This document shows, in pieces, positions 51,176 through 57,136 of a stretch of 64,000 nt of DNA. The stretch covers positions 124,001-188,000 of the forward strand of contig NZ_VIRS01000005.1 of NCBI RefSeq assembly GCF_006912135.1. Direction: 5' to 3'. Made by a program: the position numbers and the translations under genes. The notes under the pieces were generated by a model that made no database searches, was not told the DNA's origin, and saw nothing but the letters and a program-made list of their open reading frames with translations. Source of the DNA: Cryptosporangium phraense. Its GTDB lineage: Bacteria; Actinomycetota; Actinomycetes; Mycobacteriales; Cryptosporangiaceae. Within the stretch, counting starts at the first letter, position 1; each line of letters starts with the position of its first letter.

Positions 51176-51592
51176 TCAGTTCGATGCTGGTGCGCGGTCC
51201 GGTTGCCGGGGGTCGTTGATCGTCGGCACGACCGCGTCGGAGGCATCCGCTGCGGTAAGGGTCGGGTAGAGCAGCCAGACCAGTCCGACGCCGACGATCA
51301 GGCCACCGACGACTTGAGCCACCACGAACGGCAGCACCGAGCCCGGAGCGATCCCAGCGAAGGTGTCGGACAAGGTCCGGCCGATCGTGATCGCGGGATG
51401 GTCGAACATCAGGATCAGCGCGAACAACCCGGCCGCCGTCGCGGCCGCGTTCTCCGACAACTGCATGCCGACGTCGGTCGACAGCTGGGTGGCCGCGATG
51501 CCCGACCCGACGACCACCGCGGCCAACACCGCGCTTCCGACGAACTCCGCCGCGACGGGTCGCACTGACGCCGACGTCTTGACTCCGGACAT
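51176..51592 (-). CDS. Aquaporin-type protein with large internal deletion
   Basis: 138 residues. The first 50 match the MIP/aquaporin start (AAEFVGSAVLAAVVVGSGIA, ATAAGLFALILMF). The sequence then joins in frame to the family's last third (DHPAITIGRTLSDTFAGIAP and a final helix). About 100 residues are missing, including the first NPA half-helix. The second NPA appears as HPA. Intact relatives near arsC genes are about 240 residues long. The ORF is open but cannot form a normal channel; probably a relic. Divergent from the ArsR-phosphatase fusion. Confidence 0.75.
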   Translation of the reverse strand: MSGVKTSASVRPVAAEFVGSAVLAAVVVGSGIAATQLSTDVGMQLSENAAATAAGLFALILMFDHPAITIGRTLSDTFAGIAPGSVLPFVVAQVVGGLIVGVGLVWLLYPTLTAADASDAVVPTINDPRQPDRAPASN

Positions 51593-51605
51593 TGCTCAAC
51601 GATAC

Positions 51606-51629
51606 TTGACTCAACAGTTCCTGAGGCAA
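51606..51629. promoter_or_regulatory. Putative ArsR-fusion operator
   Basis: Inverted repeat TTGACTCA-N8-TGAGGCAA (one mismatch) between the divergent aquaporin-like gene and the ArsR-phosphatase gene, 18 bp before the latter's GTG. Confidence 0.65.
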
Positions 51630-51647
51630 TAGTGGACGGGGCGAACA

Positions 51648-52343
51648 GTGGACGAGGACCTGCGTCGGCGGGCCGCGATGCACGCGGCGCTGGGAGAGCC
51701 GGTGCGGCTCGCGCTGGTCGACCGGCTGTCTCTCGGCGATGCCTCACCCGGGGAGCTCGCTCGCGAGGCGGCCCTCGCGACCAACCTGCTGGCGCATCAT
51801 CTGCGCGTACTGGAGGACGCGGGGGTCATCCGTCGGCGGCGTTCGGACGGCGACCGGCGCCGCAGCTACGTCCAGCTCGTCGACGACCCGCTGGTCGCCG
51901 TAGTGGCCACCGCTGCGCCCATCGACGAGGAGGTCGGCCGGGTGGTGTTCGTCTGCACGCAGAACACTGCCCGCTCGCAGCTCGCCGCCGCGGTCTGGGC
52001 TCGGCGCAGCCCGATCCCGGTCGCCTCGGCCGGGACTCATCCGGCCGACCGGGTCCACCCTCGTGCGGTCCGTACCGCACACCGGCACGACCTCGACCTG
52101 GACACCGCCGGTACCCGGCACCTGTCCCAGGTCACCCGGCCGGGCGACCTACTCGTGGCCGTCTGCGACAACGCGTACGAAGAACTCACCGTCCGACCGG
52201 CCGACCCGCCCGCGGGCGAACGGATCCGGCTGCACTGGTCGGTCCCCGACCCGGCCGCCCACGACAGCGACGACGCGTTCGAGGACGCCTACCAGCAGAT
52301 CAGCGGCCGCGTCGACCGGCTCGCCCACGCGCTGAGCGCCTGA
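51648..52343 (+). CDS. ArsR regulator fused to low-molecular-weight phosphatase/ArsC domain
   Basis: A 231-residue fusion. The N-terminal winged helix (about 1-90) shows ALGEPVRLALVDRLSLGD and ATNLLAHHLRVLEDAGVI. The C-terminal LMW protein-tyrosine-phosphatase/arsenate-reductase domain has the P-loop CTQNTARS with Cys103 and Arg109 and a late Asp (WSVPDPA). The ArsR part lacks a CxC metal motif. Such ArsR-ArsC fusions are known in actinobacteria. GTG start; divergent from the aquaporin-like gene and upstream of arsC. Confidence 0.88.
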   Translation: MDEDLRRRAAMHAALGEPVRLALVDRLSLGDASPGELAREAALATNLLAHHLRVLEDAGVIRRRRSDGDRRRSYVQLVDDPLVAVVATAAPIDEEVGRVVFVCTQNTARSQLAAAVWARRSPIPVASAGTHPADRVHPRAVRTAHRHDLDLDTAGTRHLSQVTRPGDLLVAVCDNAYEELTVRPADPPAGERIRLHWSVPDPAAHDSDDAFEDAYQQISGRVDRLAHALSA

Positions 52344-52394
52344 CCGTCCAGAACTCCCGGCGGCCAGGGAGCCGCCGAAAGGAGAGACCACCGA

Positions 52395-52835
52395 ATGACC
52401 GCGAAGCCCAGTGTTCTGTTCGTCTGCGTCCACAATGCCGGCCGGTCCCAGATGGCGGCCGGATGGGTTGCGCATCTGGCCGGGGACACGGTCGAGGTGC
52501 GTTCGGCCGGGTCGGCGCCGGCGGAGTCGATCAACCCGGTCGCGGTTGAGGTCATGCGCGAGGTCGGCATCGACATCACCGATCAAAACCCGAAGCTCCT
52601 CACGGTCGACGCCGTGCAGGCGTCCGACGCCGTGGTCACCATGGGGTGCGGCGATGCCTGCCCGGTCTTCCCGGGTAAACGCTATGAGGACTGGGCCTTG
52701 ACCGACCCGGCCGGTCAGGGCATCGAGGTCGTCCGGCAGGTTCGTGACGAGATCCGCCTCCGCGTCGAGAAGCTTCTCGCCGAACTGCGAGCGGTGACGC
52801 CGACCAACTGGCCGGGGCGGTCCCCGGCGTGGTGA
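52395..52835 (+). CDS. arsC: Arsenate reductase ArsC (LMW phosphatase type)
   Basis: A 146-residue arsenate reductase. The P-loop CVHNAGRS (Cys11, Arg17) and MGCGDACPVFPGKRYEDW then LTDPAGQ match the actinobacterial mycothiol/mycoredoxin-type ArsC class. It reduces arsenate to arsenite (or forms a mycothiol adduct). AGGAGA ribosome site before the ATG. It follows the ArsR fusion by 51 bp. Confidence 0.92.
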   Translation: MTAKPSVLFVCVHNAGRSQMAAGWVAHLAGDTVEVRSAGSAPAESINPVAVEVMREVGIDITDQNPKLLTVDAVQASDAVVTMGCGDACPVFPGKRYEDWALTDPAGQGIEVVRQVRDEIRLRVEKLLAELRAVTPTNWPGRSPAW

Positions 52836-52891: not shown

Positions 52892-53455
52892 TCAACGGAC
52901 CATGGCCAGCACATCGCGCACCAGCCGCTGGGCGTCCCCCTCGTCCGTCGGGAGGGCGAACACCACTCGGTAGTACAGCGGCGCGACCACGTGGTCGAGG
53001 ATCTGCGAGACCGTCGGGGCGGTCTCGCCCCTCGCCTCAGCGCGGCGCACCATCTCGGCCGCCTGCTCGCGCCGCGCCTGGGTCACCAGGCACGCCGCCA
53101 CGATCTCGACGCGCGCCGCCACCATCGCCCGCAGGAAGCGCACCCGCTCCGGGCGGGTGATGTCGCGGGCGATCGCGCCGGCCCACTCGGTCAGGTCTCC
53201 GGCCAGCGATCCGGTGTCGGGCACCGACTCGCCGACGCGGGTCAGCGCGGCCACGCTGACCTCCTCGAGCAGCGCGTTCACATCGCTCCAGCGGCGGTAC
53301 AGCGTCGTCGGGTTGACGCCGGCCCGCTCGGCGATGGCCGGGAAGCTGATCTTCTCGGCGCCCTCGCCCACCAGCTCGCCGACCGCCGTGTAGATCGCGG
53401 CCAGCACCCGGCTGCTCCGTCCGCCGGGGCGGCTCGCCGCTTCTCGGGTGGCCAT
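52892..53455 (-). CDS. TetR-family regulator
   Basis: A 187-residue TetR/AcrR regulator. The HTH lies near residues 38-58 (AIAERAGVNPTTLYRRWSD) and is followed by a helical ligand domain of the TetR_C type. Divergent from the MFS-hydrolase fusion gene, with a palindrome between them; it is the likely repressor of that gene and may sense its substrate. Confidence 0.93.
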   Translation of the reverse strand: MATREAASRPGGRSSRVLAAIYTAVGELVGEGAEKISFPAIAERAGVNPTTLYRRWSDVNALLEEVSVAALTRVGESVPDTGSLAGDLTEWAGAIARDITRPERVRFLRAMVAARVEIVAACLVTQARREQAAEMVRRAEARGETAPTVSQILDHVVAPLYYRVVFALPTDEGDAQRLVRDVLAMVR

Positions 53456-53515
53456 CCACTCAGTTTACGCAAAGTTCTTGGCTTTAACGCTGTTGCGGCC
53501 TACCGTCGCAAAAGC

Positions 53516-53530
53516 AAAGCAAATTGCTTT
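53516..53530. promoter_or_regulatory. Putative TetR operator
   Basis: AAAGCAA-A-TTGCTTT is a perfect 7+1+7 inverted repeat lying 15-29 bp before the ATG of the MFS-hydrolase gene. A looser AAAG...CTTT pair is present near 53471-53485. Confidence 0.7.
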
Positions 53531-53544
53531 AAGAAGGGAGGGTC

Positions 53545-55755
53545 ATGTTCAACCGCTCCGCCTCGTTCTTCGTGGCGGCCGCCGCGGGCTCGGCGACGTT
53601 GACGGCCGCCTCCGCGCCGTCCCCGCTCTACCCCGTCTACCAGCGCCTGTGGGGCTTCTCCGCGTTCACGCTGACGGTCGTCTTCGCGGTCTACGTCTTC
53701 GCGTTGCTGGCCGCGCTGCTGACCGTCGGCTCGCTCTCCGATCGGGTCGGGCGCCGGCCGGTCGCCTGCGGAGGGCTGATCCTGCTCGCAGTGGGGATGG
53801 TGCTCTTCGCGACCGCCGGAGGCGTCGGCGGCCTGGTGGCGGCGCGGATCGTGCAGGGGCTCGCGGTCGGCGTGACGGCCGGCACAACCACGGCCCTGAT
53901 CACGGATTCGGCGCCGAACCTGCGCGTCGGCTCGATCGTCAGCAGCGCGGTCCCGGCCCTGGGCATCGCGATCGGGTCGGTGCTCGCCGGCGCGCTCGTG
54001 GAGTTCGCCCCGCTGCCTCGCCAGCTCGTCTTCTGGATCCTCGCCGTCGTCTATCTGGTGCTGGCGGGGATGGTCTGGTTCATTCCCGAGGCGGCCCGGC
54101 CCCGGCCGGAGACCCCGCTCTGGCGGTCGCTGCTGCCCAGCGCCGGGCTCCCACCGGTCGTGCGGCTGGTCTTCCTGGCGCTGGTTCCCTCGATCGCCGC
54201 GACCTGGGCGCTCGCCGGGCTGTACCTGTCGCTCGGGTCGTCCGTCGTCAGCACGCTTCTCGACGTGCGCAGCCACTTCGTCGTCGGCATCGTGCTCGGG
54301 GTGTTCTTCGTCGCGGGCGTGTCCGGCACGGTCGTGCCGTCTCACCTGCGCGATCGGCTCGGCTATGGAACGCTCGCGGTGGGCGTGCTGGTCACGATCG
54401 TCGCGACGCTGACCGGTTCGTTGCCGCTCTACGCGGTCGGCTCGGTGGTCGCGGGATTCGGCTTCGGCGCGTCGTTCCGGTCGGCCGTCCACGCGCTCGG
54501 CGAGGCGGCGCCGGCCGCCCGGCGGGGCGAGGTGTTCGCCACTATGTACATCGTCAGCTACCTGGCCTTCAGCGTGCCCGCGCTGGCGGCCGGGCTCGCC
54601 GTCGAGCGGTTCAGGCTCGAACCGACCGTGGTCACCTACGGGGTGTTCGAGGTTCTGCTGGTGGCGGCGGCCGCGCTCGTCCACCGCCGGCCGACCGGCG
54701 GGAACGAGCCCGCGGCTCACCCGCTGGTCTCCCGTCAGTTCGGCCCGACGCATTACCTCGACTGTGGACCGGCCGACGGTCCGCTGATGATCTTCCTCCA
54801 CGGCTGGCCGGCCATCGGTCTGTTCTGGCGCGCCCAACTGGAGGCGTTCGCGGCCGACGGCTGGCGCTGCGTCGCCCCCGACCTCCGCGGCTACGGCGGG
54901 TCGTCCGCTCCGGCCGGCCGGGACGCCTACGCGATCCGGGAGGTCGTGGCCGACCTGGCCGAGCTTCACGACCACCTCGGCGGCGAGCCGGCCATCTGGG
55001 TCGGCCACGACTGGGGCAGCATCGCGGCCGGTGCGGTGGCCGCTCACGAACCCGAGCGGTGCCGTGGTCTCGTGCTGACCTCGTGGGCGTACTTCCCCCG
55101 CGCCAACAGCCTGGCCACCCTCGTGCCGCTCGTCGACCGGACGATCTACCCGGCCGACCGGTACCCGGACGGGCAGTGGGACTACTACCGCTACTACACG
55201 ACGCACTTCGAGACCGCGGTCAGCGACCTCGACGCCGACCCCGCGGCCTCGCTGGCCTCGATCTATCGATCGGGCCGCCCCGAGGCGGTCGGCGACGTCT
55301 CGCCGTTGGCGACGGTCACCCGCACCGGCGGCCGCTTCGGCGCCGCCCACCACGCTCCGCCGACCGACCCCGACGAGAACCTCTGGCCCCCGGCCGACTT
55401 CGACGCGCTGGTCCGGGCCTTCGAGGCCCAGGGCTTCGGTCCGGCCTGCGCCTGGTACACGAACGACGACGCCAACGTCGCCTACGCTCGCGAAGCCGCC
55501 CACGGCGGACGCCTGTCGCAGCCCGTGCTGTTCATCAACGGCGAATGGGACGCGATCTGCGACATCACCGGAAACCGCCAGGGCGACCCGATGCGGGCCG
55601 CCTGCGCGGATCTCACGGTGATCTCGCTGCCCGCCGGACACTGGCTGCCCCTGGAACGCAAGGCCGAGCACATCCGAGCCGTCCGCTCCTGGCTGGCGAG
55701 CAAGGACCTGACCGGTCCCCCAGGGCGGCGAGCTGCCCAGCCGCACCCTGCGTAG
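53545..55755 (+). CDS. MFS transporter fused to epoxide-hydrolase-like alpha/beta hydrolase
   Basis: A single 736-residue frame. Residues 1 to about 392 form a 12-helix MFS transporter with motif A-like SDRVGRRPVACGG. A short linker (HRRPTGGNEPAAHPLVSRQ) leads to an alpha/beta hydrolase, about 400-725. Its features are those of soluble epoxide hydrolases: oxyanion motif HGWP at 419-422, nucleophile Asp489 in GHDWGS, lid Tyr candidates in the DYYRYY segment at 546-551, acid Asp669 in NGEWDAICD and His699 in AGHWLPLE. No stop codon, start codon or ribosome site occurs in the linker. GGGAGGG ribosome site before the ATG. A TetR gene is divergent. Confidence 0.9.
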   Translation: MFNRSASFFVAAAAGSATLTAASAPSPLYPVYQRLWGFSAFTLTVVFAVYVFALLAALLTVGSLSDRVGRRPVACGGLILLAVGMVLFATAGGVGGLVAARIVQGLAVGVTAGTTTALITDSAPNLRVGSIVSSAVPALGIAIGSVLAGALVEFAPLPRQLVFWILAVVYLVLAGMVWFIPEAARPRPETPLWRSLLPSAGLPPVVRLVFLALVPSIAATWALAGLYLSLGSSVVSTLLDVRSHFVVGIVLGVFFVAGVSGTVVPSHLRDRLGYGTLAVGVLVTIVATLTGSLPLYAVGSVVAGFGFGASFRSAVHALGEAAPAARRGEVFATMYIVSYLAFSVPALAAGLAVERFRLEPTVVTYGVFEVLLVAAAALVHRRPTGGNEPAAHPLVSRQFGPTHYLDCGPADGPLMIFLHGWPAIGLFWRAQLEAFAADGWRCVAPDLRGYGGSSAPAGRDAYAIREVVADLAELHDHLGGEPAIWVGHDWGSIAAGAVAAHEPERCRGLVLTSWAYFPRANSLATLVPLVDRTIYPADRYPDGQWDYYRYYTTHFETAVSDLDADPAASLASIYRSGRPEAVGDVSPLATVTRTGGRFGAAHHAPPTDPDENLWPPADFDALVRAFEAQGFGPACAWYTNDDANVAYAREAAHGGRLSQPVLFINGEWDAICDITGNRQGDPMRAACADLTVISLPAGHWLPLERKAEHIRAVRSWLASKDLTGPPGRRAAQPHPA

Positions 55756-56105: not shown

Positions 56106-56218
56106 GTTACTCCGCCGCCGACGGACATCGGGGCCGACGCCGACGACCTTGACTGTGTTCCCAGGACATGGCGTGCAATGGTCCCCATCCGTCGCGAGAA
56201 TGTGGAGGTGGACATCCG

Positions 56219-57136
56219 ATGAGGCGGCAACTCACGATTCCCCGGGGTCCGATCGAGCTGGCCGGCGATCTGTACCTGCCCGACGGCCCCGGCGGGACCG
56301 CCGACCCGCTTCGCGCCGTCGTGGTCTCGATACCGGGCAGCAGCGTCAAGGAGCAGATCGGCGCGAACTACGCGTCCCGTCTGGCCGCCGGGGGCATCGC
56401 CGCGCTCACGTTCGACCCCGGCCACCAGGGCCAGAGCAGCGGTGAGCCGCGTGATCTCGAGGACCCGTACCGGCGCAGCGAAGACATCTCGTACGCGATC
56501 GACGCGCTCAGCACGGTCCCGGCAATCGACCCGCAGCGCATCGGCGTCCTCGGCATCTGCGCCGGCGGCGGTTACGCGATCCACGTGGCCCGCACCGACC
56601 ACCGCATCCGGGCGGTCGGCGCGGTCGACCCCGGCGAGATCGGCGCGTCGTTCCGCGGCTTCCAGCCGGACGGGCCGGTGGCCGCGCTCGACGCCCTGGC
56701 CGCCGCGCGCATCGAGGAGACCCGTACCGGCCGGCTGACCCGGGAGAACTGGCTCCCCGACACGATGGCCGACGCCGAGGCGGCCGGCGTCACCGACGTC
56801 GATCTCCTCCAGGCGGTCCGGTACTACCGCACCGGACGCGGCCACGACGAGCACTCGACGAACCGCCGGCTGTCCCGGGGCGACTCGCTGCTGCTCGGCT
56901 TCGACGCCTTCCACCTGGTCGACCAGCTGATGACCCAGCCGCTGCTGCTCGTCCTGGCCGAGCACCTCGACGGGACCGGCTTCGACGAGTCCGGCGAGCG
57001 GCTCTGGTCGCTGGCCCCCAACCGGGTCGACCGCCTGGTGATCAAGGGTGCCCGCCACTACGAGATGTACGACGTCCCCGACTACGTCGACGGGGCGGTC
57101 GAGCGGCTCGTCGGCTTCTACACCGACCACCTCTGA
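56219..57136 (+). CDS. Alpha/beta hydrolase with Cys nucleophile elbow
   Basis: A 305-residue alpha/beta hydrolase. The oxyanion region is IPGSSVKEQIG and the nucleophile elbow GICAGGGYA has Cys in the place of Ser, as in the dienelactone-hydrolase group and the YcjY-like relatives. The His is near the C-terminus in GARHYEMYD. GGAGG upstream of the ATG. Substrate unknown. It overlaps the end of the convergent MerR gene by 19 bp. Confidence 0.85.
   Translation: MRRQLTIPRGPIELAGDLYLPDGPGGTADPLRAVVVSIPGSSVKEQIGANYASRLAAGGIAALTFDPGHQGQSSGEPRDLEDPYRRSEDISYAIDALSTVPAIDPQRIGVLGICAGGGYAIHVARTDHRIRAVGAVDPGEIGASFRGFQPDGPVAALDALAAARIEETRTGRLTRENWLPDTMADAEAAGVTDVDLLQAVRYYRTGRGHDEHSTNRRLSRGDSLLLGFDAFHLVDQLMTQPLLLVLAEHLDGTGFDESGERLWSLAPNRVDRLVIKGARHYEMYDVPDYVDGAVERLVGFYTDHL

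Follow-up and report, generated by a model that had tools for sequence, protein, structure and literature searches.

A transporter and a hydrolase in one frame

The window analysed here is a stretch of 64,000 nucleotides from Cryptosporangium phraense (contig NZ_VIRS01000005.1, positions 124,001 to 188,000), to which all coordinates below refer. It carries a gene in which an MFS transporter is continued into an epoxide-hydrolase-type alpha/beta hydrolase, and a TetR-family regulator is encoded divergently in front of it. The features of the locus are as follows.

52892 to 53455, minus strand: divergent TetR-family regulator with TetR_N and TetR_C_11 (Pfam, orthologues)
53466 to 53485, no strand: putative operator 1, adjoining tetR, TACGCAAAGTTCTTGGCTTT (pattern match, conserved)
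53511 to 53530, no strand: putative operator 2, immediately ahead of the fusion gene's ribosome site, AAAGCAAAGCAAATTGCTTT (pattern match, conserved)
53536 to 53542, plus strand: purine-rich, ribosome-site-like stretch GGGAGGG before the fusion gene (by inspection)
53545 to 55755, plus strand: fused gene for an MFS transporter and an epoxide-hydrolase-type alpha/beta hydrolase, 736 aa (translation, Pfam, model)
53554 to 54687, plus strand: MFS half, residues 4-381, modelled with twelve transmembrane helices (Pfam, structure model, fold match)
54688 to 54726, plus strand: linker, residues 382-394 (pLDDT below 50 at 383-389; most variable part among the fusions)
54727 to 55701, plus strand: hydrolase half, residues 395-719, a full alpha/beta hydrolase including the helical lid (Pfam, model, fold match)
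55009 to 55011, plus strand: codon of Asp489, nucleophile candidate in GHDWGS (D in all 62 close hydrolase rows)

The first-pass annotation had read the stop-free frame of 736 residues as a single chain, and our analyses confirm this. Pfam placed MFS_1 at residues 15-343 (E 1.9e-30, 106.4 bits against a cut-off of 33.4) and Abhydrolase_1 at residues 413-704 (E 1.1e-29, far above the cut-off). The length of the frame was dropped as proof of a fusion, since two further frames across this G+C-rich DNA also run open, for 773 and 748 codons; the case is made by homology, by selection and by the structure model. The linker had also been described as lacking a stop, a start codon and a ribosome site, and was found to be so. 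Residues 374 to 414 contain no in-frame ATG, GTG or TTG, and a single GGAG, GAGG or AGGA word occurs in 54601 to 54800, at 54649 within the TM12 region. A complete free hydrolase can therefore not initiate inside the linker. Prediction of the full chain with AlphaFold2, using an alignment of 75 sequences (the window and the fetched loci), yielded twelve transmembrane helices followed by a complete hydrolase with a mean pLDDT of 90.8 and a pTM of 0.73, as had been anticipated on first pass.

Comparison of the model with solved structures identified VMAT1 and VAChT as the best folds for the MFS half (Z 39.5-39.2, 16-20% identity), vesicular antiporters which we take to be DHA1-type. With such transporters (VMAT and VAChT by fold, Bcr/CflA by NCBIfam) the MFS half has in common the twelve helices, MFS_1 and the residues D66, R70 and R71 in SDRxGRR, which form part of a motif-A-like SLSDRVGRR and were present in 15 of 15 family rows. 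It differs from them in scoring far below the curated NCBIfam cut-offs of the transporter families listed, and in carrying an enzyme at its C-terminus. DHA1 drug:H+ antiporters possess motif A together with the antiporter motif C; inspection by eye revealed no GP in TM5 and no obvious motif C. A stand-alone paralogue of the MFS half with 46% identity is encoded elsewhere in the genome of the window (L002, G000:C27:12411-13583), and genome G001 has one too.

The epoxide-hydrolase-type active site claimed on first pass was located at the expected residues, with HGWP at 419-422, Asp489 in GHDWGS, Asp669 and His699. Among the close hydrolase rows, window included, D489, H699 and Y638 were conserved in 62 of 62, and D669 and HGWP in 61 of 62 each. 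The triad, Y638, Y547 and Y548 are present in all nine intact fusions described below. Y548, which aligns with the other lid tyrosine of EphA, is a Tyr in 54 of the 62 rows, and its neighbours Y547 and Y551 are invariant; the identity of one lid tyrosine is uncertain here, and which of the two in EphA is catalytic is our presumption. Solved epoxide hydrolases were the top matches by sequence as well as by fold. The soluble epoxide hydrolase structure 6fr2 superimposed on the model with Z 38.4 and an rmsd of 2.1 over 299 residues, identity to the human enzyme being 24%, and 1s8o was matched by Foldseek with E 8.4e-16. By predicted fold and by its Asp, HGxP and Asp-His residues, the hydrolase half is an epoxide-hydrolase-type enzyme of the alpha/beta-hydrolase fold.

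On either side of the two divergent genes, further genes were recognised in the window. An arsenic-type cluster adjoins at 51176 to 52835, comprising a short MIP channel gene (138 aa, approximately half of the profile), a gene that combines a helix-turn-helix with a low-molecular-weight phosphatase/arsenate-reductase domain, and a further reductase of that type. A second alpha/beta hydrolase is encoded downstream of the fusion on the same strand (56168 to 57136) and is weakly related to UilS-type lactonases (51 bits, cut-off 400).

The divergent regulator and its putative operators

Orthologues of the TetR regulator, 67-80% identical to that of the window, were found opposite fused, two-gene, MFS-only and hydrolase-only targets at 30 loci, corresponding to 25 after removal of repeats of one genome. 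A palindromic operator next to the divergent TetR had been noted before; the conserved pattern resolves it into the two putative sites listed above, both within the 89-bp spacer. The consensus AAAGCAAAGATCWTTGCTTT was derived from the very spacers that were then scored with it, and the better site showed at most 4 mismatches to it in 25 of 25 loci, in each case a lower number than any of 200 shuffles of that spacer reached (4-7). The second site was present with at most 4 mismatches in 23 of the 25, the exceptions being L009 (10 mismatches) and the Leifsonia locus L051 (6), and at L016 it merely equals its shuffles. Within the window, four pattern matches (two sites, both strands) were obtained compared to 0.02 expected. 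In the TetR-MFS spacer of Microlunatus flavus (L074) the operator reads AAAGCCACGATCGTGGCTTT, in which both half-sites are changed together and the palindrome is preserved.

A wider regulon in the genome of the window was considered and rejected. One further match with 3 mismatches was detected, and as the reversed control pattern also gave one, this corresponds to chance level. The regulator's family and the putative sites point to release of TetR by a small molecule. As an orthologous TetR stands before whichever activity a genome has, the arrangement provides Rosetta-stone evidence that both activities serve one task.

Recurrence, splitting and decay of the fused gene

Relatives were collected by searching 84,980 species genomes with a pattern; of 112 encoding stretches the best 80 were kept, and genome searches added more. 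The search for the same fusion in other genomes, suggested on first pass, revealed eight further distinct intact fusions besides that of the window, spread over at least four genera and with an internal stop in none. They are found in the genus of the window (L009, 76% identical), in Actinoplanes (L012), Streptomyces (L013, L014, L015 and L017) and Mycobacterium (L016), and in a Streptomyces-like genome (L105), which groups with L013 and L014. L092 was counted as the same locus as L016 on account of equal identities and spacer; the TGA inside its match is the terminal stop, as the frame of its twin ends in TGA directly after residue 722. In Actinoplanes sp. NBRC 103695 (L012, 4001-6970), the fusion frame stays open for ~250 codons beyond the hydrolase into TetR-like sequence with its own Met, so that a single frame of ~1000 codons takes in the MFS, the hydrolase and another regulator. 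The regulator is probably a gene of its own, but might be the third member of a triple fusion.

Over seven pairs of fusions, dN/dS (NG86) ranged from 0.22 to 0.49 in the MFS half and from 0.16 to 0.44 in the hydrolase half; few changes underlie the three closest Streptomyces pairs, and the values are rough for distant ones. For the linker, values from 0 to 1.06 were obtained by the same method, with one of the seven pairs undefined. At E <=1e-100, the fused chain matched 1 of 396 genomes in a phylum sample (the window's own only) and 5 of 397 in an order sample, two belonging to the genus of the window and three matching with the hydrolase half only. In the window's genus itself 2 of 4 genomes matched, its own included, and in the Streptomyces-like genus 1 of 246. 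The Mycobacterium-like genus yielded 11 of 297, one fused, one two-gene and nine matching the hydrolase half only. In the larger surveys 2-4 candidates were scored per genome. With the hydrolase alone as query, 1 of 150 genomes related to the Streptomyces-like one gave a match, at the fused locus. Of 72,556 plasmid records, 23 were hit at E 1e-60, none covering 80% of the chain. Judged from these sequences, the fusion is rare, recurrent and maintained in both halves.

Under the same regulator the two activities also occur apart. In Mycolicibacterium iranicum (L024) they are encoded by two genes overlapping as ATGCTGA, as deduced from both frames, and in Paractinoplanes (L019) by two genes with a short gap between them. 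At three loci the MFS is kept and the hydrolase has decayed. Streptomyces seoulensis (L018) has an in-frame hydrolase gap from ~474 to 616, by which the nucleophile and the first lid helix are lost and the chain is retained. In Actinoallomurus (L036) the hydrolase is reduced to a terminal stub with its trace going on in another frame, and in Leifsonia one frame after the MFS reads GNRQGDPLRAAC and another AVRAWLR, remnants of the lost hydrolase. Four loci (L043, L061, L073 and L074) carry the MFS alone, with no trace of the hydrolase at E 0.01, and seven distinct mycobacterial loci carry the hydrolase alone under an orthologous TetR. The decayed, MFS-only and hydrolase-only loci imply that whatever is under selection does not depend on fusion.

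Phylogenetic analyses resolved few deep branches in the MFS tree and in the joint tree of TetR, MFS and hydrolase. In the joint tree, a mycobacterial side made up of the M. iranicum pair and the seven loci with the hydrolase alone is set apart (98/94) from a side with L019, the MFS-only loci and every fusion. The hydrolase tree requires 3 changes for the fused state, and it places mycobacterial hydrolase-only loci without a TetR hit (L020, L028, L098 and copies) among the fusions. Owing to the poor deep resolution, the trees neither establish nor rule out that the fusion arose once.

The hydrolase itself belongs to a widespread family with members 60-82% identical, Actinomycetota included, and no close solved relative; in Pseudomonadota, Acidobacteriota, Bacteroidota and the cyanobacterium Brasilonema the identity is 60-76%. 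Neighbours were taken as the nearest long open frames at 42 of 81 hydrolase-only loci, 67 of 83 being scanned, which covered 38 loci; most of the 16 unscanned frames were short, but they also included long ones from L023, L085 and L089. A LysR substrate domain was found in 9 of the 67, EamA in 5 and MFS_1 in 2, and a conserved MFS neighbour outside the TetR group was accordingly rejected. EamA, which is unrelated to the MFS half, adjoins the hydrolase in 5 of the 38 scanned loci and was not found next to it in the other 33. It lies directly behind the hydrolase in L048, L052, L069 and L108 and ahead of it in L049, and on the Agrobacterium plasmid (L108) it is followed by an RND adaptor and pump. 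At the mycobacterial locus L098 an ABC-transporter-like gene precedes the hydrolase. Eleven loci (L076, L077, L078, L079, L082, L084, L085, L088, L089, L090 and L091) possess a second epoxide-hydrolase-like gene nearby with ~27-31% identity; these are tandem paralogues in Acidobacteriota, Burkholderiaceae, Acidocellaceae and Bacteroidota.

Proposed function and relation to known fusions

The recurrence of fused, split and halved forms with the same switch suggests that pumping out and destroying one toxic chemical belong together. We propose, with a probability of roughly 0.55, that the locus is a chemical-defence module controlled by TetR, whose exporter and cytosolic epoxide hydrolase both work on the same lipophilic compound, a reading built on sequence comparison and structure models. 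A lipophilic toxic compound, probably bearing or yielding an epoxide, would enter the cell and cause the TetR repressor to leave the two putative operators, whereupon the fused single chain would be produced. Its 12-helix DHA1-like half in the cytoplasmic membrane would export the compound, its product or both. Since 12-helix MFS proteins have both termini in the cytosol, the hydrolase half should lie on the cytosolic side, where it would open the epoxide to a diol. Asp489 would form the ester, water activated by His699 in an Asp669-His699 relay would resolve it, and the lid tyrosines would assist. The fusion would provide equal amounts of both activities, held at the membrane where the compound enters. 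In this proposal we infer the epoxide chemistry, the direction of efflux, the common substrate, repression and induction, and physical coupling. Speaking against it are the loci that do without one half or have let the hydrolase decay, the short linker modelled at low confidence, the 33 scanned hydrolase-only loci at which EamA was not found, the poorly resolved deep branches, the scoring of the operator consensus on its own source spacers, and the MFS half's missing motif C, as judged by eye. A more intimate coupling, in which the hydrolase docks under the transporter and hands over the diol or takes the incoming epoxide directly, is unlikely on present evidence. If true, it would mean that a lipophilic alkylating toxin is neutralised during membrane crossing and never equilibrates with the cytosol.

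That the fused frame is an assembly or sequencing artefact joining two genes can be dismissed with near certainty. The first-pass annotation had asked whether homologues are two separate genes and whether the linker hides a frameshift or a missing stop. The former proved correct, as the two-gene loci L019 and L024 and the single halves show, and the latter is excluded by the nine distinct fusions from different assemblies, open in at least four genera. The same two-gene loci bear on a tentative alternative, somewhat doubtful in our opinion, that both halves act on one toxin class uncoupled and that fusion is a neutral by-product of an overlapping stop and start in a tetR-MFS-hydrolase operon. 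The ATGCTGA overlap in M. iranicum, the two genes of L019, the dispensability of either half and the linker, the most divergent part among the fusions, are in favour of such an origin, whereas the persistence of the open frame in nine distinct loci of at least four genera, with dN/dS below 0.5 in both halves, argues against it.

Two other readings concern what the halves do, and both appear improbable. The hydrolase half might be another Asp-nucleophile enzyme, for example a haloalkane or other dehalogenase, as haloalkane dehalogenases lead the NCBIfam matches by E-value and the lid helix YYRYYTTHF is unlike the FQEPG stretch of EphA. However, these profiles score far below their curated cut-offs (69.9/265, 69.6/466 and 62.8/241 bits), for which reason the assignment was rejected; Tyr638 of the lid is invariant in the 62 rows, solved epoxide hydrolases are closest by sequence and fold, and the fusion has HGWP where dehalogenases carry HGNP. 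The MFS half, for its part, might import a compound which the hydrolase opens as the first step towards a carbon source, TetR sensing the substrate. The direction of an MFS is not readable from its sequence, and the aromatic-acid importer family TIGR00895 matches weakly (42.2 bits against a cut-off of 418.55). Nevertheless, no catabolic operon was recognised among the scanned neighbours in the window, which consist of the arsenic-type cluster, MFS, hydrolase, MerR, DUF5996 and another TetR, and the best structural matches are vesicular antiporters presumably of DHA1 type. EamA accompanies some of the hydrolase homologues, and RND efflux genes accompany one; this pairing with transporters of unrelated families favours export and hydrolysis over import for growth, but at most loci no such neighbour is seen.

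For the defence module that we prefer, the occurrence of the two activities fused, split or with one half lost under a single conserved repressor represents a natural experiment on whether export and enzymatic detoxification of the same compound reinforce or replace each other. The shared putative operator offers a handle on the inducing compound of a widespread hydrolase family, which may possibly include a self-resistance or xenobiotic route.

A transporter fused to its partner enzyme is a known kind of protein, and the pairing of MFS with an epoxide hydrolase appears to be undescribed. In agreement with the earlier remark that no family of this architecture was known, no such fusion was described among the matches listed in open-licence full texts (as distinct from subscription papers and protein databases), including those on epoxide hydrolases with efflux or self-resistance and on LplT; this is weak evidence of absence, the search terms being limited by Greek-letter and slash spellings. 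Compared to the soluble epoxide hydrolases EphA of Mycobacterium thermoresistibile (5cw2), the Streptomyces enzyme (6unw) and human EPHX2, the hydrolase half has the fold, the Asp nucleophile motif, HGxP, the Asp-His relay and a lid tyrosine in common, but identity is only ~22-32%, the lid helix sequence is unlike and the partner is a membrane transporter. Human EPHX2 is likewise a fusion, with a phosphatase domain.

Among carrier-enzyme fusions, PMC3924187 names SulP-carbonic anhydrase, ABC-2-peptidase M1 and sensor-kinase-MFS, which also unite transporter and enzyme in one chain and belong to unrelated families. Nearest in logic is the lysophospholipid repair system LplT-Aas, an MFS transporter with a cytosolic enzyme, encoded according to PMC11416262 by two genes in many bacteria and apparently by one frame in some. 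The functions of the fused proteins are given there as uncharacterised; a two-hybrid interaction was shown for the separate proteins, and expression of LplT was disrupted when a C-terminal fusion was engineered (PMC11416262). The enzyme there is an acyltransferase/acyl-ACP synthetase with a lipid substrate, whereas the partner in the window is, by its sequence, a hydrolase. As with LplT and Aas, the two partners described here occur both as adjacent genes (L019, L024) and, at nine loci, as one chain.
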